Assembly: GCA_016193585.1 (NCBI GenBank)
Contig: JACPRW010000010.1
Span: 40,962-104,961, forward strand
Length of the DNA: 64,000 bases
Source of the DNA: Candidatus Aenigmatarchaeota archaeon
GTDB lineage: Archaea > Aenigmatarchaeota > Aenigmatarchaeia > GW2011-AR5
Direction: 5' to 3'
Below, piece after piece: positions 8,616 to 63,861 of the stretch (position 1 is the stretch's first letter; every line of letters begins with the position of its first letter). Made by a program: the position numbers and the translations under genes. The notes beneath the pieces are model-generated. The model was given only the letters and a program-made list of their open reading frames with translations, was not told where the DNA came from and ran no database searches.

Positions 8616-8764
8616 TATAGTGAACCAAGTAAACAATCAGGTATTATATCTTGGTTCACTTACACGCAAAAAGCAAAGCTTTTTGGTGCACCGGAAAACC
8701 TTGTTTTCCGCGTGTAGCGGACAACAAAAGTAATATGTTGGTATTCTTTTGTTGGTCCACTATA
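8616..8764. repeat. TATAGT/ACTATA-bounded hairpin element, copy E2
   Basis: GTGAACCAAG..CTTGGTTCAC; double-hairpin cassette TACACG[..]GTGCAC[..]CGTGTA; GGACAACAAAAG..CTTTTGTTGGTCC with loop TAATATGTTGGTATT. Confidence 0.85.
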
Positions 8765-15049: not shown

Positions 15050-15075
15050 CTGTTATTTTCTTTGAGCGCATGGCT

Positions 15076-15171
15076 TATAGCAGATTGTAATAATAATGGA
15101 ACTTTTTACCACAATCTGCTATAGGGAAAGAACATTGTAAAATGTTCCAAAATCAATGTTCTTTACTATTA
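15076..15171. repeat. Hairpin element, copy E3
   Basis: TATAG CAGATTGT..ACAATCTG CTATA, then AAAGAACATTG..CAATGTTCTTT ACTATTA; loops contain TGGAAC and GTTCCA. Confidence 0.85.
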
Positions 15172-15199
15172 CATTCCTCGCCCTCTCTACGTATTTTTC

Positions 15200-17228: not shown

Positions 17229-17940
17229 CAGATACGTCGGTGAACAGTCTTTTAATACTTTAAGCACGGATAGTAGTTGGGTTTTCAGCGGCGTGAACGT
17301 CCGTTCACGTCGAAGGGCGGCTTGGTTTGGCAACTGTTGCTCACAGGATTTTGATACGCAGAGGGCGCACTGTCCTTTGGTAATCAGCAATTAGCAGAAC
17401 CAACCGTTTCTCTGTTTCATAATCACGAGCTCTTCGGAGCGATGAATCACGCTGCGCGCCTCGGTAATGGCGTTGTTTTCGAGTGTATGCAAAAAAGAAA
17501 CGGCGGACGCACGGCGTCCGTCCCGCATGCGATGAAAAAACAGTTCACGCGCAGCTCAGGTGAAGGCATTATGCAGTCATAATGTCGGATAGAGGTATGA
17601 GCAGGCCAAACACTATTAGAAAAATTTGCAGGGTAAGTGTTTTCCCTACAATTCCGGTTGATCCCGCCGGAGACTACCTTTATCAGGATTCGGCTAAGCC
17701 ATGCGAGTCACTGCCGCAAGGCAGGGCGAACTGCTCAGTAACACGTAGCTAATCTGCCCTCAGGAAGGGGATAACGCCGCGAAAGTGGCGATAATACCCT
17801 ATAGGCGATAGAGGCTGGAAGGCGCTTTCGCCAAAAGCCGCAAGGCACCTGAGGATGAGGCTGCGGCGGATTAAGCTGTTGTTAGGATAAATGCCTAACA
17901 AACTTATAATCCGTACGGGTCGTGAGAGCGATAGCCCGGA

Positions 17941-18818
17941 GAGAGGTGGTTAACTTTAAATTTTCCCTGAGGCAAGTACCTGTATGCATGTGAATGAAAG
18001 ACGCATGTCAAGATTTATAGGGTATCTGTTCAGTGATGGGAGTTTAAGACGCAAAAAGAATAAAATGGGAATAGAACAAGTAGAAGTTTCGATAGAGTGT
18101 GCAGATCTAGCGATAGTGCAGGATTTTCGGCAACTTTGTAGCGACATTTTAGGAAGAAACGTTGGGAAAATAACCAAGAGAAAACGTGATAAAAACTGGA
18201 GAGCCAGCTACAGCTTTTATTGCAAGTTAAATAAAGAGTGGAGAAAGTTTTTGTTTAGCATGTCACCAACTTTTAGAACTTCTCCATGCCTGGTTAACCT
18301 CCACGGCGGTAAGCTGTGTCAGAAATGTTTAACAAAACACTATAAAGACACGACGTACCCGGGGATTAAAATCCCAAGATTCGTTTATAAAAGCAATAAC
18401 AACATAAAGGATTTTCTTCAGGCATTCACAAATTCAGAAGGAAGTGTTCAGTTAAGAGCAAATAGACATGGCAAATGGCTTGAGTTTTCAAGACATATAA
18501 AGATTTCAACTGAACATCCGCTGCTATTAAAAGGAATTTCTAGGATGCTGAAAACCCTTAAAATAAATCATAGATTTGTGCCGAAAACAAACCCAAATTC
18601 AGTGATAATACAACAAAAAGAATCGATCAAAAAATTTCGAAAATTAATTGGATTCATGGGTGGCATCAGAATAACCCCAACGGGTATCTGGGGAAACTAT
18701 GAAAAAACAAAAATTCTAGATGCAATAATAAAGACATTCGATTTTGATCGAGGATTTCTGCAAACATTTTTAGATGATAATGAAATATACTCTTTCATAA
18801 AAGTTAACCACCTCCCGG
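17941..18818 (+). mobile_element. 16S intron 1 with LAGLIDADG gene
   Basis: Terminal complementarity GAGAGGTGGTTAACTTT / AAAGTTAACCACCTC; interrupts the conserved region after AGCCCGGA. Confidence 0.8.
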
Positions 18819-18859
18819 ATATGGCTTCTGAGATTTGCAGAATAGAATCTCTGAAGTAA
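17984..18859 (+). CDS. LAGLIDADG homing endonuclease
   Basis: FIGYLFSDGSL and FLQAFTNSEGSV; C-terminus appears to read into the 3' exon. Confidence 0.85.
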   Translation: MHVNERRMSRFIGYLFSDGSLRRKKNKMGIEQVEVSIECADLAIVQDFRQLCSDILGRNVGKITKRKRDKNWRASYSFYCKLNKEWRKFLFSMSPTFRTSPCLVNLHGGKLCQKCLTKHYKDTTYPGIKIPRFVYKSNNNIKDFLQAFTNSEGSVQLRANRHGKWLEFSRHIKISTEHPLLLKGISRMLKTLKINHRFVPKTNPNSVIIQQKESIKKFRKLIGFMGGIRITPTGIWGNYEKTKILDAIIKTFDFDRGFLQTFLDDNEIYSFIKVNHLPDMASEICRIESLK

Positions 18860-19075
18860 GAATGCTCTCATTGAGCCGCATTCTTAGGCTTGCTGTTCTG
18901 CGAACAGAAAACATAAAGCCAGGCTCTACGGAGCGCAGCAGGCGCGAAACCTTTCCAATGCGCGAAAGCGTGAGAAGGGAATCCTGAGTGATTTCGCGCG
19001 AGCGAAATCTTTTCTCTAGTCTAAACAGCTGGAGGAATAAGTGGTGGGTAAGACGGTTGCCAGCCGCCGCGGTAA

Positions 19076-19157
19076 TTTGCAGAATCGACGCACGATTCAG
19101 TCTGGCATCGCATGGATTTCAGGCGATTCTGAAATTTCCGGTTCTGCGAACCGTAAA
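19076..19157 (+). mobile_element. 16S ORF-less insertion at the ~530 loop (GCGGTAA | CCGCGCC)
   Basis: ~80 nt between universally conserved 16S segments. Confidence 0.75.
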
Positions 19158-19233
19158 TAACCGCGCCACGAGAGGTAGTCACGATTATTGGGCCTGAAGC
19201 GCCCGTAGCCGGGCTGGTGTGTCTCTGGTGAAA

Positions 19234-19300
19234 TTCGCAAAAAGCAGAGCTTTTTGGAATTTGCTGTTCGCAACTTCCGATGCTTCATTTGCGAACACCA
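19234..19300 (+). repeat. 16S insertion containing CAAAAAGC-aga-GCTTTTTG hairpin
   Basis: Extra sequence in the helix before GGAGATACTACCAGTC; hairpin nearly identical to those in E2 and a 23S insertion. Confidence 0.7.
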
Positions 19301-19894
19301 AATCCGGCAGCAAACTGTCGGGCTTGCTGGAGATACTACCAGTCTTGGGACCGGGAGAGGCCGATGGTACGTTACGGGTAAGGGTAAAATCTTTTAATCC
19401 GTAACGGACCACCTGTGGCGAAGGCGATCGGCTGGAACGGGTTCGACGGTGAGGGGCGAAAGCTAGGGGAGCGATCGGGATTAGATACCCCGGTAGTCCT
19501 AGCTGTTAACGATGCCCGCTTGGTGTTGCATGTCCTTCGTGGACATGCAGTGTCGTAGCGAAGGCGATAAGCGGGCCGCCTGGGGAGTACGACCGCAAGG
19601 TTGAAACTTAAGGGAATTGGCGGGGGAGCACTACCAGGGGTGGAGGCTGCGGTTCAATTGGATTCAACGCCAGGAACCTGACCCGGGAAGACAGCAGAAT
19701 GAGGGTCACTCTGAAGGGGTTACCTGACAAGCTGAGAGGTGCTGCATGGCCGTCGTCAGTTCGTGCTGTGAAGTGTCATGTTAAGTCATGAAACGAACGA
19801 GACCCGTGCCGCTAGTTGCCACTCCCTTCTTCGGAAGGGAAGCACTCTATCGGGACCGCTGGTGCTAAACCAGAGGAAGGGACGGTCGACGGCA

Positions 19895-20725
19895 GATAGG
19901 GGAAGGTGAATCTACAAATACTAGCCTAAACAAGGTTAGTATATGCCTCCAACGTCAGTATCTTTACATCAAATTAGAAAGATGTTCAGAGACGTTAAGA
20001 AACTGACAAAAGATTTCAGAGAAATAAAGCCAGAATTGATTGAAAATGATGCATCCAAAATACTAATCTTGCGCTTGGCTCTCCAAATGTCGCAAAATAA
20101 TTTTGAAACATTTGTCGGGGCTGAAAACAACAAGAATATCAGCAAGTATGAAAGGGGCATCATAAAGAAAATGAAAGCGAAAACTGCAGAAAAGTACATA
20201 GAAAAGATTAAAGGAAAACTAAAAGAAAATGTAACAGAAGAAAATGTACTTCTGGCTTACAAAAGAATGGCTTCTGAATCAAATGGTTTCTTCAAAGCAA
20301 ACCAAGGGACTAAAAAAGTTCTCTTGGCCCAAAGAAAAGGTGCAATAAATTCATTGCGTCTCAGATCGACTGAACAGGAAATGTCTGTGATGGCTTTTCT
20401 CGAGTCTAACGGACTTAATCCAGAGATAAATTTTCCATTAGACGAAAACAAAGGCATCATAACCGACATCTTTCTACGAGATCATCATATAGCAATTGAA
20501 TGTAAGGATATCAAAACAAAAAGCTACAAAGAGCACAAAAATAACATACGGCTTCTTGCATATCAAGGTTATAGAATAAAATTTAATTTCAAAACACTAA
20601 AACTTGCTGCATTCGTGAAATCTAACTTCGCAGTAAGTCAGAGAGACCTTGAAGAATTGAAAGGACCTTATGATTTTGTTTTTACTGACGTTGGAGAGCT
20701 GAAGCATATCATCGTCCCCTAGCCG
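19895..20725 (+). mobile_element. 16S intron near site ~1205 encoding a non-LAGLIDADG nuclease
   Basis: ATAGGGGA...TCCCCTA terminal stem; interrupts GACGGTCGACGGCAG | ATGTCAGTATGGCCCGAATTCC. Confidence 0.85.
19943..20722 (+). CDS. Predicted XRE-HTH + PD-(D/E)XK-like (putative homing) endonuclease
   Basis: LALQMSQNNFETFVG..ISKYERG HTH-like; RSTEQEMSVMAFLESNG...ITDIFLRDHHIAIECKD nuclease-like motif; no LAGLIDADG. Confidence 0.65.
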   Translation: MPPTSVSLHQIRKMFRDVKKLTKDFREIKPELIENDASKILILRLALQMSQNNFETFVGAENNKNISKYERGIIKKMKAKTAEKYIEKIKGKLKENVTEENVLLAYKRMASESNGFFKANQGTKKVLLAQRKGAINSLRLRSTEQEMSVMAFLESNGLNPEINFPLDENKGIITDIFLRDHHIAIECKDIKTKSYKEHKNNIRLLAYQGYRIKFNFKTLKLAAFVKSNFAVSQRDLEELKGPYDFVFTDVGELKHIIVP

Positions 20726-20895
20726 ATGTCAGTATGGCCCGAATTCCCTGGGGTTACACGCGGCCTACAATGCGTAGGACAATGGGATGCGATGCCGTGA
20801 GGCAAAGCCAATCTCCTAAACCTACGCTTAGTTCGGATCGGGGGCTGCAACCCGCCCCCGTGAAGCCGGAATCCCTAGTAAGCGAAGGTCATCAT

Positions 20896-20993
20896 GAATG
20901 CGCGTTCGCAGGATGATTGGTCGTGCATGCGGCGGAGTGTAACGCTGCGTGCAGTGCAGCACAATGACATGTTCGCGCGTCCGTGAACTCTTT
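20896..20993 (+). mobile_element. 16S ORF-less insertion near site ~1391
   Basis: ~100 nt between GGTCATCAT and GCTGAATGCGTCCCTGCTCCTTGCACACACC. Confidence 0.75.
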
Positions 20994-21002
20994 CGCTGAA
21001 TG

Positions 21003-21034
<32 letters not shown>

Positions 21035-21102
21035 GCCATCCGAGTGGGAACTTGGTGAGGCGTGCGTTGAGCACGTCGAATCAAGTTTCTGCAAGGAGGG
21101 CT

Positions 21103-21268
21103 AAGAGCTCTTCTGTTCGCGCAAAAGAGCGAGCATTCGTAAAGTAACGAATGGGCGATTTGATTTGCTGGGTATGTAGATTACAAGGCTTGACCCTGAA
21201 CCAGCAGAGATGACAGGACTGAAGCGGCAGTGACGACGTGTTCGTCACTCAGTATCCAGTCGTTGCTC
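21103..21268 (+). mobile_element. 16S ORF-less insertion near the 3' end
   Basis: ~165 nt between AAGGAGGGCTAAG and AACAAGGTAGCCGTACGGG. Confidence 0.7.
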
Positions 21269-22696: not shown

Positions 22697-24038
22697 TTAT
22701 GAGCTACCGATGGGAACCGCAGCGCATCGAGCTGCCGCTCGACGTCAGGTGGCCGCAGTTGCGGGAAGTCTATGAGCGTCTCGACAGGAAGGGGAAAAAG
22801 TCTCGGTATCGAGACGCATCCGACCTACCTCATTGTCGTTGCCGTACCGCTTGATCCTCGGGACATGAGCGACATCCGGCGGGTGAACGGACCGGAAGGC
22901 TACCATGCAGGGGATTGAATCGCGGCTCCCGCACTCGTCATCTTTATATACTTTTATCCGGTATTAGTGCTGGTTGCAGGGTCAGCAATCCTGCGTTTGT
23001 TTTACAGTACCATACGAGAAAACTACCGAGGCTGTTCAGAGTCGGTACAAGCTTTGTGGCAGAAGCGTGTGTCGTCAGCGGGTAGCGGCGTGAATCAGAA
23101 CGTCACTATGCATGCGTTGCTTCTGGACTTCTTCGGTGCACTACCTGCAATGGCAGCACGCTGTGCGAGTCAGCTGTTGTCGGTTGACATGTGGCCGGCC
23201 AGCGCCGCTGGTTTGGTTGAATGCTGATGTTCTTGATGAGGCAGTCATAGTCCAGGACGAAGATAGCTAGCTCCCACGCTGTCAGGTGGATAGCTCGGTT
23301 CGCGAGGCGACGAAGGAGGTGGCAAGCTGCCGTAAGGTGCGGCAAGGCGCATGCAGCCTTTGAACCGCACATCTCCGAATGGCACATAGCCGACAACTCG
23401 CGGAAGACAAATCGACGCACCCTCAGGTGCGTCAAGTCGCTTTCTGCGAGAGCGAACGCAGAGAATTAAAACATTTTAGTACCTGCAGAAAGAGAAAGCA
23501 ACAGCGATCTCCCCAGTAATGGCGAATGAAAAGGAGACAGAACAAACCGAAGCTCCCTGGAAACAGGGTAGCGATGTGGAGAGGGCAGGGGCCGTTCTTC
23601 GTTTGCCGACCCGAAGTGTGCTGGAACGCACTGGTACAAAGCGTGATACCCGCGTAGGGGAAGGCAAAAAAGAATATGCCCTGCTGCACGAGTATGGCCG
23701 GCCGGATAGCCGGTCAGAATACGGGTCTCATCTAGACCCAATTCTAAACACTCCGCGAAACCGATAGTGAAGTAGTACGGTGACGGAACGATGAAAAGAA
23801 GGGGTAACACCCGATGAAAAAAGCTTGAAACCTGGCAGCTATCGTTTGTTGGGTAAGGCTCCCGCAAGGGAGAAGAATCCAACGTCCGTTTTGAATAACG
23901 GGGCAGGGAGTTCATGGCAGTGGCGAGGCTAAGCGCTTCACGCGCGGAGCCGGAGCGAAAGCGAATGCGCGCAGGCAACAAGGCGCACCGTATGAAAGTG
24001 CGGAAGTCACTGCCCTGAGACCTGAAAATTTGGGAGTG

Positions 24039-24862
24039 AGTGAAGGTTTGCTGGCTCGATGGGCTTATTTTTCTTTTGCTGAAGCGAAATTAAGATAAGC
24101 CCATCTTGCCCAATAAGTCTATGGAAGCGAGAGATACGTTGATGGCTCGGCTCATAGCTTTGTTGCTTACCGATGGCGGACTTTGTGGAATAGGTAAAAG
24201 GTGGCGGATTCATTTCACGTCAAATTCAGAACAATTGGTAAGTGAATTCCAAGCACTGGTAAAGAATCTTTTCGATCTCAAAATGGTAAAAGACTATCGG
24301 AAAGGTGCATGGAGAATTCAGACATGGGTGAGCAATAAAGTGAAAGAAGAGCTTTTAGCATATTCCAAAACGTATAGAACGCTTTCTATAGAGGAAAAAG
24401 AGACGGAAGCTGAAATACCGGCTTTTATCAGAAACGACAAAGAACTTGCACGCGAATTCCTAAAATATGCATTCACGGCAGACGGGACAGTAATTTTCAA
24501 CATCGGAAAAGCACGGTATGGCTTTAGGTTCGATAGATGCGTGAAATTATATTCCGAGCACGCCCGTCTGAGAAACCAGTATTTCGAACTTTTGCAGAAA
24601 CTTGGTTATAGACCGGTCATGCTTAAAGATGCGGTGCTGCTAAGAAAGCCAACCAACATGACTAAGTTTGCAAACGAAATTGGTTTTGTAGAAGGTGTAA
24701 AAATTTCAGGCAAAGGTTTATGGAAAGGTATTACAAAAGACCGATTAACGGAATTCGCCGCAAATTCGTACAGTTTGAAGCCGAAAAAATTGGGGAAATC
24801 AAAAGCTGACATTCATGCGAACCTTGTAAATCTCATTCTCAAATCAGGAGACCAGATGATCT
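24039..24862 (+). mobile_element. 23S intron with LAGLIDADG gene
   Basis: Interrupts ..GGGAGTGAG | CTAGCCCTGGGCAAGG.. Confidence 0.8.
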
Positions 24863-24864
24863 AG
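24106..24864 (+). CDS. LAGLIDADG homing endonuclease
   Basis: LIALLLTDGGL and FLKYAFTADGTV; stop TAG lies in the 3' exon CTAGCCCTGGG. Confidence 0.88.
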   Translation: MPNKSMEARDTLMARLIALLLTDGGLCGIGKRWRIHFTSNSEQLVSEFQALVKNLFDLKMVKDYRKGAWRIQTWVSNKVKEELLAYSKTYRTLSIEEKETEAEIPAFIRNDKELAREFLKYAFTADGTVIFNIGKARYGFRFDRCVKLYSEHARLRNQYFELLQKLGYRPVMLKDAVLLRKPTNMTKFANEIGFVEGVKISGKGLWKGITKDRLTEFAANSYSLKPKKLGKSKADIHANLVNLILKSGDQMI

Positions 24865-24956
24865 CCCTGGGCAAGGCGACGCTGGGCGAAAGCTCAGTAG
24901 AAGCCTGCTACCGAACATAGTACAAACTTGTCGGGTGACCTGGGGTTAGGGGTGAA

Positions 24957-25273
24957 ATTCAGGGAGAAGAAGACTTAAGAAGATGTCCGTGAAAATGCGA
25001 GGAATGGGAACATGTGAGTATTGCAAACGTCCTGTATCGCCATTCGGCGATATGTCACGAGGGATACCGGGCCCATCGTATGCACTGCTGGAAGATGGTA
25101 AAGAAATAGCATTTTGCGGGGTTCCTTGTGAAATGTTCTATGTGCTGGAAACGGGCACTTCGCTCAGAAAAACTGATGGAAGACCGAATGAAGCATTTCC
25201 AAGCGATATTGGAAGTGAAGGCATCGCGGATCCTAAACATCCTGGATATAGCAAGAACTAGTTCTCTCTGAAC
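24957..25273 (+). mobile_element. 23S intron encoding a small zinc protein
   Basis: TTCAGGGAGAA / TTCTCTCTGAA termini; interrupts GGGGTGAAA | AATCGAATCTGG. Confidence 0.75.
24983..25261 (+). CDS. Intron-encoded TRASH-like zinc-binding protein (92 aa)
   Basis: CEYCKRPV...IAFCGVPCEMFYVLE (CxxC..FCxxxCxxFY). Confidence 0.55.
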   Translation: MSVKMRGMGTCEYCKRPVSPFGDMSRGIPGPSYALLEDGKEIAFCGVPCEMFYVLETGTSLRKTDGRPNEAFPSDIGSEGIADPKHPGYSKN

Positions 25274-25620
25274 ACCAAAAGCCAATCGAATCTGGTTATA
25301 GCGGGTTCCTTCCGAAATGTATCTCAGTACAGCCTCGTCTTGGGTAGATAGTGGGGTAGAGCACTGATTAGGCAGTCAAGGAGGGAGACTTCCACCTGTC
25401 TTGTCAAACTCCGAATCCATTATCGCGCAGACGGGAGTGAGCATGCCGGAGTAATTTTGGCATGCGAGAGGGAAACAACCCAGACCATGGTTAAGGTCCC
25501 TAAGTAGCTGTTAAGTACACCGAAGGTAGTCCTGAATCTCAGACAACGGGAAGGTTGTCTTAGAAGTAGACATCCTATAATCAACGTGTAATAACGGACC
25601 CGCCGAGATTCAGGGCGCTG

Positions 25621-25690
25621 AAAATAAACTTTTTGGGAAAAAGTTTAATCAAAAACCCAGAATGTTTGTCAGCAAAATGGACGGGGTTAA
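25621..25690 (+). mobile_element. 23S mini-insertion homologous to the tRNA-Val D-arm intron
   Basis: TAAACTTTTTGGGAAAAAGTTTAATCAAAAACCCAGAAT vs TAAGCTTTTTGGGAAAAAGCTTAACCAAAAACTTGGAAT. Confidence 0.75.
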
Positions 25691-25830
25691 ACAGCTCACC
25701 GATACCATGGGCACTGCACCCGCAGTGTGGTAGGGAGGCGTGCTGCGAGGGCAGAAGCTTCTCCGTGAGGAGGGGTGGACCTTGCAGCAATGAAGATCCT
25801 GCCGGGAGTAGCAATCAAGTCGGGCGAGAA

Positions 25831-26198
25831 ATGGCAGGAGAAGGTATATGAAAGTTTCTGATAGAGTAAATAGTACTGATAAATAGACTTGAAATAAGGT
25901 TTTCCACATGCATCAGTATAGGCTTAGTCTAAAAAGATGGAAAATTTCAAGTGAATTGCCGCGTATAGCAGGCGAGTTTTATGAAGCAGTACACAAACGG
26001 CAACTCTGGGATAATTTAAGACCCGAATTATCAATTAAACCTGATGGGCCTTATGTCAATACGTGCCATCTTAGAGTCAGGAAAGGATTATACCCAGCTA
26101 TTTATTCTATGGCAGATTCTTACGATTTAGAAATAGAAGATACAACATCTTTGTTTCTACGACTTAAGTTTTGGTAATTCTTTCTCCTCCACTCAATT
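25831..26198 (+). mobile_element. 23S intron encoding an 89-aa orphan protein
   Basis: AGGAGAA / TTTCTCCT termini; interrupts GTCGGGCGAGAA | AATTCCCGACCGCC. Confidence 0.7.
25908..26177 (+). CDS. Intron-encoded orphan protein (89 aa)
   Basis: ORF fills the insertion; no recognised family. Confidence 0.45.
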   Translation: MHQYRLSLKRWKISSELPRIAGEFYEAVHKRQLWDNLRPELSIKPDGPYVNTCHLRVRKGLYPAIYSMADSYDLEIEDTTSLFLRLKFW

Positions 26199-26995
26199 CC
26201 CGACCGCCTGAGGGGCCAGGGTTTCCGCTTAAAGCTTATCTGAGCGGAGTTAGCCGGTCCTAACCGCGCTCTTACGAAGACGCGTGGGAAAGGGAAACAG
26301 GTTAACATTCCTGTGCCATCCAGTGTTCGTCAATCCTGCGGTAAACGCTTCAGGATAGTCCGAGTATGGTCGTCGCCATATCCAAGCCTCGAAGCCGGGG
26401 GAGTGTAGTAACTGCGAGAACCCGGTGAAAGGGTGACGGGACTGATGTATGTCGGTTTTGGACGACTCCCGGAGCCCATGAAAATACTGCAGAGTAGAAT
26501 GCTGGGTGCCCGTACCCAGAACCGACTGTTTAGTTGATGTACTCAACTAAATCGGGAAACAGGTGCCCCTCGCTGAGAACTGAAAAGAGAAGTGTAAACG
26601 CACAGGCAAGAAGTACTCTGAAACCAGCGATCCAGAGCGGTCGATAAACTATGTAGCCAAGCCTGCCAGTGCACGAAACTGGAACTTCTTTTCTTTTCAC
26701 TCAATGGCGAAGGTGTTCGGGAGAATCCGCCTTAGGGAATTCGGCACGAATTGTTTGTTCATGCAAACATTCCCGTAAAATTAGCCGGGTATCTTTGGTA
26801 GAACCGGTGCCTAGTCAGGGATGACTAGGTCGCAGTGACAAGAGGGGTCCGACTGTTTAACAAAAACATAACTGACCGACAAGCCGAAAGGCCTTTTATG
26901 GTCAGCGAGTCGTGGCCACTAGCGGTGTGTGAAACCCCATTCCAATGGGTCTATGCCCCGCTGTAGGCCGGCCCTAACTCTGAGGGTCTTAAGGT

Positions 26996-27288
26996 GACAA
27001 CGTTGCCTTAGTAAAATTTGGCTATATGCGGGAACATCTTGGTGAAGCTTCAGTAGGCAACTGCTGTGGCGACACGGCAACAAAACCTAACAATCTGAAG
27101 CCAAGAGACAATCCGCAGGAAAGGCTTCTCTTTTGGAGAAGAATCCCCAGAGACTGTACGCCAGACTCTTCAATCGGAAGAGAAGATACAGTCCGAACCT
27201 CACGGTGACGTGAGGAGGCGCCAGCGAGTGCCCGCCTTTCACGATAATTATCCGAACCAATGTGAAAGGTTCCCAAGCAACAGAATTG
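26996..27288 (+). mobile_element. Group I intron in 23S rRNA (site ~1931), no ORF
   Basis: P1 AAGGU/GCCUU with U.G at the splice site; P/Q TATGCGGGAAC ... GACAATCCGCAGG; R/S AGACTGTACGCC ... AAGATACAGTCCGAACC; terminal G before exon AGCGTAATCCC. Confidence 0.9.
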
Positions 27289-27310
27289 AGCGTAATCCCT
27301 TGCCAACTAA

Positions 27311-27363
27311 ATTGCAAAAAGCAAAGCTTTTTGGGATCCCCGAAAAGCCATGCTTTTCGTAGA
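27311..27363 (+). repeat. 23S insertion: double hairpin with GGATCC linker
   Basis: CAAAAAGC-aaa-GCTTTTTG GGATCC CGAAAAGC-cat-GCTTTTCG. Confidence 0.8.
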
Positions 27364-27626
27364 TATTGGCCTGCATGATAGATTCACGAGATCCCTGCTG
27401 TCCCGAGGCGGAACCCGGCGAAACCATTTTTCTGGTGAGTAGGCCAGAGACCTCTAGTGGGAAGAGTAGACCCCGTGGAGCTTTACTGTAGTCTGATGTT
27501 GTGGTATGCGTATGAGTGTATAGCGTAGGTAGGAGGCGTCGAAGCCCTGCTGTAAGGTGGGGTGGAGCCGGCGATGTAACACTACCCATTCAAACGCATA
27601 TCGCTCACTTCGCGAGAAGGACACCA

Positions 27627-28280
27627 TCAGATGGACAGTTTGGCTGGGAATTCAAGAGAGGCTAACGAGTTTTTGGCAATCCCAAATTTAGGCGAGTTGC
27701 TATCAGACACAAGGCTCTCATCCAAGAACCCTGAAACTGAAAGAAAGCGCTTGCAGTTGTCAAATCCGGTGATGAGCACAGCCCTGCCGGTCAACCGGCA
27801 CTGTATGTCAAGCGTGGCAAGGCATTCGGCGAGGTGCGTTCTGAGATGCGGATAGTAGCAAGTAATTTCAACTCTGAGTATGCTGTATTTTTTGTTGGCA
27901 TACACTGAACCGTCGCCAGAAGCAAACCCCCTGAGAAAAGCTGCCGCAAAGCTCCTGTCGGTGCGTATAGCAACAGGAACGTTGCAGGTACCTTTTCTAT
28001 AGTGGGGATGCTTTGCTTCCACGCCGTTTCCGGGGATTGATAAGGAAATCAAGGCTCTAGCAATTGGTGAGGAAAAGAACCTCACCGAAACCGCATTGGT
28101 GCATTTGTTTTCGTGAAACCTGCTGATACCGAAACAGTCATGCGCAAGTTTCATGAAAACGTGCCTCAAGCCTTGAAGCTTATTGGTAAATTGGATGCAA
28201 TACGTGCGTTTCGATTTGTCATAATAAATTGAGCCGTCTGATAACAACAAACCGAGAAAAGTTGCCATCTTTTCGTCCAT
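27627..28280 (-). CDS. LAGLIDADG homing endonuclease encoded antisense to 23S rRNA
   Basis: FLGLLLSDGSI and FLRGFASGDGSV; likely start MDEKMATF; stop in the upstream rRNA exon. Confidence 0.85.
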   Translation of the reverse strand: MDEKMATFLGLLLSDGSIYYDKSKRTYCIQFTNKLQGLRHVFMKLAHDCFGISRFHENKCTNAVSVRFFSSPIARALISLSIPGNGVEAKHPHYRKGTCNVPVAIRTDRSFAAAFLRGFASGDGSVYANKKYSILRVEITCYYPHLRTHLAECLATLDIQCRLTGRAVLITGFDNCKRFLSVSGFLDESLVSDSNSPKFGIAKNSLASLEFPAKLSI

Positions 28281-28365
28281 GATGCTTGTTTGCTCCCTGT
28301 GTTTATAGGTGCTTGCCGAGCACATGAAGACTGAAAAGTCGATGAGTTTACTCTCTTGGGTCAGC
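27649..28365 (+). mobile_element. 23S intron carrying an antisense LAGLIDADG gene
   Basis: Interrupts GGACAGTTTGGCTGGG | GGCGGTACGC; CAAGAGAG / CTCTCTTG termini. Confidence 0.82.
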
Positions 28366-28569
28366 AGGCGGTACGCTTTTGAAAGGATATCAAAAGCCCC
28401 CAAAGTTCGGCTTGGCAGGGTCAGAAATCCTGCGGTCAAGTGCAAGCGCAAATGCCGGATTGACTGGACTCCCAACAGTACGGTGTCCAGCGTCGAAAGA
28501 CTGGGCTAGCGATACGCTGGTTGGCCTAGATGGCTGCCAGTGACATGAGAAAAGCTACCCCGGGGATAG

Positions 28570-29165
28570 ATTTATACGTCGGTGTGCACAAGTTAAGCGA
28601 ATGCAAGAAAAAGGTTTCATCTTGGGTGCAACTGAAGACGGTATACTCTACTACAGAGAGAATAAGAATGAATATGGCCTAGAAATCGAACAAAAAGTAA
28701 TGGAATGGCTGTTAGTTGTCCAGGAAGCGCTGAAAATTGCCTATAACAAGCAATCCAGAATAAGGAAAATGAAAAAGGGCTATTATAGGTTGAATGTGTA
28801 TTCAAAATCGCTCTATCATGAGCTGGTTGGATTACGAAACAACCCACAGCGCATTCTTGAGCAACCAGAAGCATTCCAGACTGGCTTCCTTCAAGGTATT
28901 TTTGATGCAGAAGGAAGCGTTCGATTAGATAGAAACCATATAAGCGTCAGCTCAAATAGGGAAAGTCTGATAAGCCTAGTTACTTTCCTGTTAGTCAAAA
29001 GGGATATAATTGCAGGAAAACCATGGCAAGATTCAGCTGGCGTGATATCTCTGTCAATATATGGCATAGATGATATCAAGAAGTTCTCTGATTTAGTAGG
29101 ATTCAGGCACCCTGAAAAAAAGCATAGACTTCAACTTTTAGTGAATGGTGTATAAATCCCCTATA
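28570..29165 (+). mobile_element. 23S intron in the peptidyl-transferase region with LAGLIDADG gene
   Basis: Interrupts GCTACCCCGGGGATA | GGTGTCGTAGCGGGTGAGAG. Confidence 0.8.
28601..29155 (+). CDS. Single-motif LAGLIDADG homing endonuclease
   Basis: FLQGIFDAEGSVRL. Confidence 0.8.
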   Translation: MQEKGFILGATEDGILYYRENKNEYGLEIEQKVMEWLLVVQEALKIAYNKQSRIRKMKKGYYRLNVYSKSLYHELVGLRNNPQRILEQPEAFQTGFLQGIFDAEGSVRLDRNHISVSSNRESLISLVTFLLVKRDIIAGKPWQDSAGVISLSIYGIDDIKKFSDLVGFRHPEKKHRLQLLVNGV

Positions 29166-29198
29166 ATGGTGTCGTAGCGGGTGAGAGTTCTCATCCGC

Positions 29199-29446
29199 GC
29201 TCTTCTTGAGGAATAACGCTGGTAGTGACGAGAATATACCCGTCCCAGTATGAGCGCCGCTTCGCGGCGCGGTGATTACAGCAGGGTAGCTTCTGAACCA
29301 GGCGAAACGTTGTTCCGCAAACACTAGCTAGATGAAGAGCTCATAGCCTTCGAGCCGTCGAAGGCGCTCAGAGCTGTCGTTAGTAAGCAGAACCGAGAGC
29401 CGTGGAGGTCTCGGAACTGCGAGCGAAGCGAGTGGTTCTGAGTGCG
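29199..29446 (+). mobile_element. 23S ORF-less intron
   Basis: TCCGCGCTC / GAGTGCGGA termini; interrupts GAGAGTTCTCAT | CAGATCGACCCCGCG. Confidence 0.72.
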
Positions 29447-29509
29447 GAGAACAGATCGACCCCGCGTGTTGCGGCGTCGCTGTCGGCTGGGCCTCTCCTG
29501 GCTGTGCAG

Positions 29510-29624
29510 CAAAGAAATAAGGCGAACATCTTGCTTGCCCTCAACCGTTTGACACGGCGGATAGCCTCGTATGAAGAACGGCGTTACAAGCGGGATAAGA
29601 ATAACGCCTTGTTTCTCTGCATGC
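29510..29624 (+). mobile_element. 23S ORF-less insertion
   Basis: GCAAAGAAATAAGGCG / CGCCTTGTTTCTCTGC termini. Confidence 0.68.
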
Positions 29625-30173
29625 AGCCAAGGGTGACGGAGTTCACGTATTAAAAGGCCACCTTAGCTGGGTTCAGAACGGCGTGAGCCAGTTTGGTCTA
29701 TATCTGCTAGAGGTGTTACTGCCTGAGGGAAAGGAGGGATAAGTACGAAAGGAACATCCCTTCGTGGCCTCTAGTTTACCTGCTGTCTGACAAGGCATGC
29801 AGGGTAGCCACGCCATACGCTCATTAGGGCTGAAGGCATCTAAGCCTGAAGGAGCTCTCGAAAAGAGGCAGATGGTACGCGCAAGACGACGCGGTATGGG
29901 AGCGGGGTGTACGCACCGAGCTTCGGCGAGGTGTTCAGCCCACGCTTCCCTACACCAATGCTAGCCTTCAAATGGCGCCAGTTGCGGCTGGCGCTTCCTG
30001 GAAACAGGGTCCTGAGACTATGACTGCCCCACGGGAAACGCAGGAATAGCTACTTTAACCTACATTCTCGGGTATAGAAAGGCTTATATATTAGTCCGTT
30101 ATATAAAGTAGTACGTGTGGTTTGGGTTACTCAGTTAATTCAATACATTACAGGCTAGATTGGGGTGTGGACT

Positions 30174-49169: not shown

Positions 49170-49655
49170 TTATTTTTTCGCCTCCTGTTTCGGCGCCGAA
49201 GCCGCAGGTTTCTGCGCCGCCCGCGCTGCCTTCTTCATGACGCCGACGGATTTCTGCGTCCTGAACGAGCTGCGTGTCCTTTGGCCGCGCACCGGCTGTC
49301 CCAGCGAGTGCCGCACGCCGCGGTATGCCCTGATTCGCCTGAGCGTGTTGATGTCGTCCCGCTGCCGCAGGTCAAGGATGGAACCAGTGAAGTGCAGGTC
49401 AGTTCCTGTTTCAGGGTCCCTCCGCCTGTTGAGCATCCAGCGGGGAAACGTCGGATTGGTGATAGCTTGCGCGAGTTCCTGCAGTTCGCTGTCGCTCAGA
49501 AGCCCTATCTTCTTCTTCGGGTCGACCTTGCTTGTCAGGCACAAGGCATGCGAGAATGTCTTGCCGATGCCCTTTATTCTCCGTAGCGCCCGCTCGGCCG
49601 CAAGATTCCCCGGCAAGTCAGTTGCCAAAAACCGCACGATTTTTCTAGGCTCCAC
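49170..49655 (-). CDS. rps13: Ribosomal protein S13
   Basis: IVRFLATDLPGNLAAERALRRIKGIGKTFSHALC. Confidence 0.93.
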   Translation of the reverse strand: MEPRKIVRFLATDLPGNLAAERALRRIKGIGKTFSHALCLTSKVDPKKKIGLLSDSELQELAQAITNPTFPRWMLNRRRDPETGTDLHFTGSILDLRQRDDINTLRRIRAYRGVRHSLGQPVRGQRTRSSFRTQKSVGVMKKAARAAQKPAASAPKQEAKK

Positions 49656-49685
49656 AAAAATACCTCTTGCTTCGGGGTCTATTCC

Positions 49686-49784
49686 ATACTATACCCAGAG
49701 ACATTAATATTTGAACAAATTAATGTCTCTGGCATATCCTGAATGACACTATACAATGTTCAATAATTTATGTCATTCAGTATA
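49686..49784. repeat. Hairpin element, copy E4
   Basis: CCAGAGACATTAAT..ATTAATGTCTCTGG and CTGAATGACA..TGTCATTCAG; loops carry TTGAACA / TGTTCAA. Confidence 0.8.
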
Positions 49785-49835
49785 ATTGGCACGACCACGC
49801 CAGCATCAGTTTAATATAAGGCAAAGCTTAAAATC

Positions 49836-50339
49836 TTGTTGTTCGTCAGAGAATCCAAACTTTTTATTGCTGCACGGCAAACTACTACCGTGAAAGTTGC
49901 TGACGTGATGTCGCGGCGCGTGGTGGCGCTCAAGCCCTCGCATACGCTGCACGACGCGCTGAAGCTGTTTGCTGCCAACAGGATTTCCGGCTGCCCGGTG
50001 ACGAGCCGCGGGAAGCTCGTAGGCGTGCTGTCCCAGTCCGACATCATCGCCCTGATTGACGTGCATGCGAAAATACAGAAGGAAACGACGTCACTGGTTC
50101 TTGCTGCGCTCGTGTCGGAAAAATACGATGCGCTCAAGCCCGCGATCAGGAAGCTGCTGAACCACGAAGTAAGAAGGTACATGCAAGGGAACGTGGTCAC
50201 CATCAGCTCTGGTGATGACCTCTATGAAGCCGCGAAGCTGATGAACAAGCACAAAATAGAGCGCCTCCCGGTGGTCGATGGCATGAGGCCGGTCGGCATC
50301 ATCTCGAAGAGCGACATCGCCAGAGCTTTGGGGGAGTAA
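49836..50339 (+). CDS. CBS-domain protein
   Basis: VADVMSRRVVALKPSHTLHDALKLFAANRISGCPV; second CBS. Confidence 0.9.
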   Translation: MLFVRESKLFIAARQTTTVKVADVMSRRVVALKPSHTLHDALKLFAANRISGCPVTSRGKLVGVLSQSDIIALIDVHAKIQKETTSLVLAALVSEKYDALKPAIRKLLNHEVRRYMQGNVVTISSGDDLYEAAKLMNKHKIERLPVVDGMRPVGIISKSDIARALGE

Positions 50340-54861: not shown

Positions 54862-54956
54862 TATAGTGAAACCAGAAAAGAAACGGAACATGTTTCTGGT
54901 TTCACGGTGAGGAGTCCAAGAAAGTCGTACGCCGATTGTTTTCTTGGACGACTATA
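54862..54956. repeat. Hairpin element, copy E5
   Basis: TATAGTGAAACCAGAAA..TTTCTGGTTTCAC and GTCCAAGAAA..TTTCTTGGAC gACTATA. Confidence 0.8.
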
Positions 54957-56359: not shown

Positions 56360-56460
56360 CATGGTTATCACCGCACGTATGTGGAGCAGGCGCTTTTTCA
56401 ATACGTGCGAAATGAGAGGGTTTTTGCCCTATTGCCCTGGGGTATAGAGAATTGCGTTGC

Positions 56461-57042
56461 TTATGACCTATGAAAACGCAATTCGCTGGATGAGAAATGC
56501 GCAGCCTCCAAGGGCATATGCTGCGTATTTCTCCATATCTTTTTCTGTTTGAGAATAAGGTAGCTGAAGCCGAGAAGAGCAAACAGAATGAACAGCACGC
56601 CGATGGTTGCGTCCGCTTGGAATCCAGACGTCCCTACGCTCGATGTCGCGTTTACGGCGTCGGCAAGTGTCTTGCCACTTGCTTCCCGCGGCATAGAGGC
56701 AGGCGAAGCGGAAAAGCCCTGAAAGATGCGGGAAATGCCGACGACCAAACTCAGGAGCGACAGCGAAAAGACGATAACCCACGAATAGTACGAGGGCTTG
56801 AAGAGCTTCTCGCCTTTCGGTGTCAGTCCGTAATAGACCCACTTGTTGGTGCTTTCCTTGCGGCTGACGAGGCCCGACTGCTCAAGGACGTTCAGGTGCT
56901 CGGATACCGTGGTCACATGGCGGCGCAGCAGCGTCGCAAGCTCTGAAGCGGTGTAAGGGCGCTTCGCGAGCAGCTTCACGATGTCCTGTCGCGTCTCGGC
57001 GCCGAGAGCTTTGATGGTGTTTTTGTCGAGGATTTCAGGCAT
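56461..57042 (-). CDS. ArsR-type HTH transcriptional regulator with C-terminal TMs
   Basis: DIVKLLAKRPYTASELATLLRRHVTTVSEHLNVLEQSGLVSRKE. Confidence 0.85.
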   Translation of the reverse strand: MPEILDKNTIKALGAETRQDIVKLLAKRPYTASELATLLRRHVTTVSEHLNVLEQSGLVSRKESTNKWVYYGLTPKGEKLFKPSYYSWVIVFSLSLLSLVVGISRIFQGFSASPASMPREASGKTLADAVNATSSVGTSGFQADATIGVLFILFALLGFSYLILKQKKIWRNTQHMPLEAAHFSSSELRFHRS

Positions 57043-57697: not shown

Positions 57698-57789
57698 TAT
57701 AGCAGGTTCTGATAATACCGGAACTATTCGAACCTGCTATACGGTATGTTCAGCATAGAATGTTCCAGAATCAACTGAACGTACTATTA
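57698..57789. repeat. Hairpin element, copy E6
   Basis: TATAGCAGGTTC..GAACCTGCTATA and TATGTTCAG..CTGAACgTA ACTATTA; loops GGAAC / GTTCC. Confidence 0.82.
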
Positions 57790-59508: not shown

Positions 59509-59631
59509 GCGTGGCGCCTGTCTCTTGCAGCATAGAAAGGCTCCTTATTATCCTACTTATCCTACTTCGGGCGCTTCCTTTGCCAATAATTGCCATACCT
59601 TTAAATCGACGCGGCAGAAAATAGTATGGGA

Positions 59632-59885
59632 TATACTAAACTGCGAAACTTATATGACGCAGATTCGCAGTTTGTATACAGATATAGCAATACAAGGAAA
59701 TAAACACGATACGAGGAGAATCGAAGATTCTCCTGTACAGGTGGATTCATGGAATCCACCTTGTATGACTTCCTTGTTTGCTATACATGGTGAAACAACG
59801 TTTCACCTGTACAGGTAAAGCTTTGCTTTACCATGTATGTGAAACAAGAAGTAATATGTCGGTATTATTTTCTTGTTTCACTATA
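59632..59885. repeat. Hairpin element, copy E7 (largest; two double-hairpin cassettes)
   Basis: AAACTGCGAA..TTCGCAGTTT; ATAGCAATACAAGGAA..TTCCTTGTTTGCTAT; two ATAC..TGTACA..GTAT cassettes; GTGAAACAAGAA..TTCTTGTTTCACTATA. Confidence 0.88.
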
Positions 59886-63655: not shown

Positions 63656-63672
63656 AGAAAAAACCCATGTAT

Positions 63673-63861
63673 TATAGCAGATTGTAATAATAATGGAACT
63701 TTTAGCCGCAATCTGCTATAGATAATTGCGCAGCTTATGTCGTATTAACGCGCAATTTTCTATAGGTGAATTGCAAATAATATCAGGACATAACCAGTGC
63801 AATTCACCATATATGGAAAGAACATTGTAAAATGTTCCAAAATCAATGTTCTTTACTATTA
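63673..63861. repeat. Hairpin element, copy E8 (nested: E3-like outer + inserted two-hairpin cassette)
   Basis: Near-identical to E3 on both sides of a ~93-nt insertion; inner loops TTATGTC / GACATAA. Confidence 0.88.

Follow-up and report, generated by a model that had tools for sequence, protein, structure and literature searches.

A probable MITE-like double-hairpin element with mirror-image ends beside a ribosomal protein gene of an Aenigmatarchaeota-type archaeon

The window (the whole stretch of 64,000 nucleotides analysed here; G000:C8:40962-104961) belongs to a 1.17 Mb assembly that is 90.75% complete. It is archaeal, with SSU and LSU rRNA genes recovered by an Rfam scan; both genes are much enlarged by introns (17651-21143 and 23262-29969), among them a group I intron at 26965-27215. 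Elsewhere in the window, a plus-strand CBS-domain gene diverges from the minus-strand gene for ribosomal protein S13 (49170-49655), behind which come an S4-domain gene and an RNA polymerase Rpb3-type gene. Much of the intergenic region between the CBS-domain and S13 genes (49655-49893), upstream of the ribosomal S13 operon, is taken up by a double-hairpin element, E4, which may lie within the promoter or leader of this operon. The Rfam scan of the window returned nothing matching at E4.

E4 is composed of two adjacent stem-loops (Table 1). Both hairpins are strong, and direct reading of the sequence bears out the loops TTGAACA and TGTTCAA given in the preliminary description, as well as the loops TGGAAC and GTTCCA assigned to another element of the window, E3, and the statement that the stems of the two elements are unrelated. 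When folded as single-stranded DNA, the 99 nt that hold E4 reach -19.8 kcal/mol (z -7.1; equalled by none of 200 shuffles), and when folded as RNA, -30.4 (z -6.5).

Table 1. Position of E4, its parts and the other elements and genes discussed (window coordinates unless a contig is named).
Feature	Position	Strand	Remarks
E4 double-hairpin element	49690-49784	.	body about 49692-49782, TA on each flank
Hairpin 1	49695-49708 / 49719-49732	+	14-bp stem, loop ATTTGAACAA
Loop core TTGAACA (hairpin 1)	49711-49717	+	19 nt from E4 left end
Hairpin 2	49739-49748 / 49771-49780	+	10-bp stem, 22-nt loop
Loop core TGTTCAA (hairpin 2)	49757-49763	+	19 nt from E4 right end
Left terminal inverted repeat TATACCCAGAGACATTAATATTTGAACA	49690-49717	+	75% complementary to 49757-49784
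Right terminal inverted repeat	49757-49784	+	partner of 49690-49717
E3, family F1	15074-15172 (about)	+	cores TGGAAC / GTTCCA; about 40 genome copies
Family A' element	57698-57787	+	cores CGGAAC / GTTCCA
F1 element with F2 element inserted between its hairpins	63670-63860	+	F2 cores TTATGTC / GACATAA
Family D element	56445-56533	-	cores ATGCCCT / AGGTCAT, mismatch at centre
Double hairpin with non-complementary loops	54866-54949	+	counter-example
DDE_Tnp_1 transposase with SWIM zinc finger	L261:1426-2658	-	only intact one in search of own genome

E4 is one of many such elements. Scans covering some 460 kb of the host genome (the window plus about 400 kb elsewhere) revealed numerous double hairpins that fall into the families F1, A', F2, D, K, the E4 type and G/H/J. 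The E4 type occurs at six places in this genome, with two near-full copies, one divergent copy (80%) and three partial ones, while F1 and F2 reach about 40 and about 50 copies, many of them 100% identical and located at differing sites. The elements are short (about 95 bp), free of genes and multicopy, as MITEs are. They are repeatedly nested in the loops or inter-hairpin linkers of one another, in every listed case at ATA or TA. Loop complementarity is mostly weak in families G/H/J, and the multicopy family G shows no convincing loop match. In a phylum-wide homolog search of 156 genomes, relatives of the E4 and F1/A' types turned up in roughly twelve genomes, which belong to the same family and order, those of E4 in other genomes at 74-98% identity; double hairpins are sparse in raw stretches of the relatives. 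Viral contigs searched with F1 and F2 patterns gave no match, and among the papers searched nothing relevant was retrieved on comparable elements of DPANN archaea or Aenigmatarchaeota.

Several arrangements in this genome deserve a separate mention. At L065-L070, F2 elements at separate sites share a family G insertion at an identical loop position, with inner modules of varying length, as if the F2 and G composites moved as units or the insertion site were a hot spot. In a family E element (L085:13517-13606), the loop of the AAACTGCGTT-hairpin appears inverted relative to family K, which suggests that the loop may have been inverted across a stem. At 8660-8717 and 27312-27362 of the window lie related hairpin modules with two arms, the first of them AAAAAGC..GCTTTTT; one module is within the LSU rRNA region. 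Family G elements carry a 52-nt form, with the ends TACACGC..GCGTGTA, in their linker. Nested hairpins are densely clustered at 59600-59885, together with long quasipalindromes.

Two alignments of homologs, A2 (33 rows, F1/A' type) and A3 (16 rows, E4 type), were examined for paired changes. In the stems, cells changed on both sides number 114 in A2 against 48 in shuffles and 14 in A3 against 3, neither count being reached in 500 shuffles. Stem covariation is clear in both alignments, and therefore the two hairpins are real and are maintained by compensatory change.

Do the loops covary as the stems do? The preliminary description had taken the step from the E3 loops to those of E4 as covariation that directly attests a tertiary contact between the loops. 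This comparison is not a covariation test, because the two elements belong to different families with unrelated stems. A swap test on the collected copies, in which true loop pairs are set against exchanged ones, gives no signal in the E4 family (17 distinct homologs from nine genomes; 13.35 for true against 13.53 for swapped pairs, p=0.64). In A3, both-sided loop cells number 6 against 2.7 after shuffling (13/500), and the covariation score is matched by 43 of 500 shuffles. All seven loop pairs are intact in three of the 16 rows only, namely the window copy, L032 and a G015 copy with 98% identity, and the central pair is broken in seven. The centre of the 7-mer drifts independently, the very behaviour that the preliminary description had named as evidence against its contact: G003 and G009 carry TTGTACA opposite TGTTCAA, G004 has a TTATACA loop, a second G015 copy has TTCCGACA/TGTCTTAA and G020 has TTCGTATA/TATGACCAA, and even L035, a divergent copy from the host genome itself, retains only five of the seven pairs. 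Within the family of E4, the claim that covariation directly attests a tertiary contact does not hold.

The copy-based test comes out differently in sister families, being modestly positive in A' (p=0.004) and K (p=0.006); F1 gives p=0.20, and a test stratified over F1, A', E4 and K, with kinship ignored, p=0.004. In A2, both-sided loop cells number 10 against 4.6 in shuffles (1/500). Loop boundaries were set by hand, several alignment rows are close relatives and none of these tests takes account of phylogeny. Swap tests pooled over all families (p=5e-5) or over a mixed F2/D/K group (p=2.5e-4) were set aside, because each family inherits its own matching halves and only within-clade tests count. 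The covariation in the sister families modestly supports a loop-loop contact, which is possible, and is explicable otherwise too; it is no proof of a kissing contact, because recognition of inverted-repeat ends or template switching predicts the same.

The loop match of E4 is by itself weakly improbable (p=0.044 given loop size and composition), and it extends outward into a 28-nt terminal inverted repeat of 75% complementarity. In E4, hairpin 1 is similar to hairpin 2 read as its reverse complement (p=0.0013), also with the core masked (p=0.003). The same mirror similarity is present in all eight representative elements (p 0.0003-0.008), seven of which lack direct similarity between the two hairpins, and it persists in seven when the core is masked (p<0.05), the exception being F1 (p=0.16). 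The core is placed at an equal distance from both ends: 19 nt on either side in F1, A' and E4, 16 nt in F2 and G002, and 18 nt in D and K, the exception being the E4 relative of G007, in which the two distances differ by one base. Among the 16 E4 homologs the outer spacing is constant in all, and the inner spacing is variable. The elements have terminal inverted repeats, as MITEs do, and the 6-10 nt loop core, 16-19 nt from either end, is their inner, best-kept part. The loop match is the inner portion of an imperfect terminal inverted repeat. If the ends are inverted repeats measured from the termini, loop complementarity is automatic when the element arises.

Empty and filled sites can be aligned exactly in nested cases, for example GGACATA^ACC with GGACATA[..]ATAACC and GATA^CAACG with GATA[..]ATACAACG. 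Of 59 F1/A' copies, 49 have the same triplet at their left and right ends, where the permutation mean is 38.6 (p=5e-5), as in TTA/TTA, TCA/TCA (four times) and TAA/TAA. Target-site duplication, expected of a MITE, is seen in these triplets and nested pairs; E4 itself has TA on each side and no empty site of its own was seen, and for F2 a duplication of the flanking TA is indistinguishable from target preference plus the element end. Duplications of TA or TNA are known from the IS630/Tc1-like and IS5-like groups. At the completeness given above, the host genome has neither a Y1 (PF01797) nor a DDE_3 (IS630-type, PF13358) transposase; in the control for the Y1 search, six of 14 control genomes were positive. 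A search for IS4/IS5-type enzymes in the same genome recovered a single intact DDE_Tnp_1 gene, on L261, and a broken second one, on L262. No double-hairpin ends were seen around the L261 gene, and these searches tied no enzyme to the elements.

The host genome carries many such families, mutually nested and with TA/TNA duplications. E4, about 95 bp long and flanked by TA, is likely to be a mobile DNA element of the MITE-like, non-autonomous kind, whose hairpins are diverged inverted copies of each other. Some enzyme would recognise two equal ends, each made of a terminus and a core at fixed distance, and move the element. The loop complementarity would then stem from inverted-copy ends that need to stay alike, either for recognition by a protein or, less probably, for mutual pairing. 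Against the MITE-like reading stand the enzyme searches, which gave no candidate with matching ends, the ambiguous TA flanks of F2 and the lack of an empty site among the E4 observations; a purely double-strand inverted-repeat mechanism also leaves the selection on the hairpin stems unexplained.

A true kissing contact, in which single-stranded DNA or RNA of an element has its two loops paired, the hairpins are locked together and selection keeps this pairing, is rather unlikely, even though changes that preserve complementarity on both sides do occur in the sister families: TGGAGC/GCTCCA (L162), CGGAAC/GTTCCG (L203 and L248), TATTGGAAC/GTTCCAATA (L239) and, in family K, a series from TATGTTACAT/ATGTAACATA (L252) through a T.G intermediate (G003) to C-G (L254). 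The A', K and stratified swap tests and the loop pairs of A2 point the same way, and the coexistence of several distinct cores in one genome is easier to picture with pairing than with one sequence-reading protein. However, inverted-repeat ends yield identical signals, and E4's own family shows none by swap test or covariation score. One-sided, non-wobble changes are common (C.A and A.C in G020, G018, G015 and A'), and three of six G/H/J elements have loop matches at chance level (p>0.2), with p=0.83 in the swap test, although family G occurs in many, nested copies all the same. A coaxial kissing helix would also be sterically difficult to form between hairpins separated by linkers of only 0-9 nt. 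A bolder version, in which the ends of an element are joined by base-pairing of the hairpin loops, each family has its own pairing code and one core-blind enzyme moves many families, seems improbable to us.

Quasipalindrome correction, by which template switching during replication would copy one loop onto the other and paired changes would be single events free of selection for pairing, is about equally improbable. Template switching in imperfect palindromes is an established mechanism, every element is a long quasipalindrome, and the double changes co-occur in single copies (L162, L203, L239). Yet the arms beside the cores are only about two-thirds to three-quarters alike, so that correction would need to be confined to the core, and no copy was noticed in which conversion reached further. 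Chance would fit the E4 match taken alone (p=0.044) and the many loops inspected, given that a complement of 6-7 nt is frequent between AT-rich loops of 10 and 22 nt. It is very improbable as the origin of this match, and is largely refuted by the mirror similarity of the ends, which outlasts masking of the core, and by the equal end spacing, shared with other families.

What emerges is the small genome of an Aenigmatarchaeota-type archaeon, heavily seeded with double-hairpin families that insert into one another's loops and lack an obvious enzyme. Should their loop cores pair, they would provide a base-pairing route to the joining of transposon ends. If they do not, ancestry from inverted repeats mimics the covariation of a tertiary contact, a warning for the inference of RNA and DNA structure.

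Among known systems, the REP and REPIN sequences with their TnpA-REP (PMC8266576) likewise consist of inverted, paired palindromes spread across intergenic DNA; here the genome has no Y1 transposase and the duplications are TA/TNA. Derivation from a REPIN or an IS200-IS605 element was rejected, the Y1 HUH transposase being absent from the own genome as assembled. Two adjacent stem-loops, an intergenic location and apparent mobility are also features of the double-hairpin elements (DHE) in fungal mitochondrial DNA (Paquin et al., 2000, cited in PMC4618339) and of the RHE of sponge mitochondria (PMC2800124), among which forms with extra sequence between the hairpins occur as well. The loops of the sponge RHE are reported as not conserved, and tertiary contacts were judged unlikely there (PMC2800124). 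In contrast to these organellar elements, those of the E4 type reside in an archaeal chromosome, are longer, and have loop cores that are conserved and inversely repeated. With prokaryotic MITEs (reviewed in PMC10969869), the elements have in common that they are short, AT-rich, intergenic, multicopy and gene-free, with terminal inverted repeats and short duplications. They differ in that searches of their own genome yielded no matching transposase and in that both terminal repeats are hairpins in their own right, with loop cores that are conserved.
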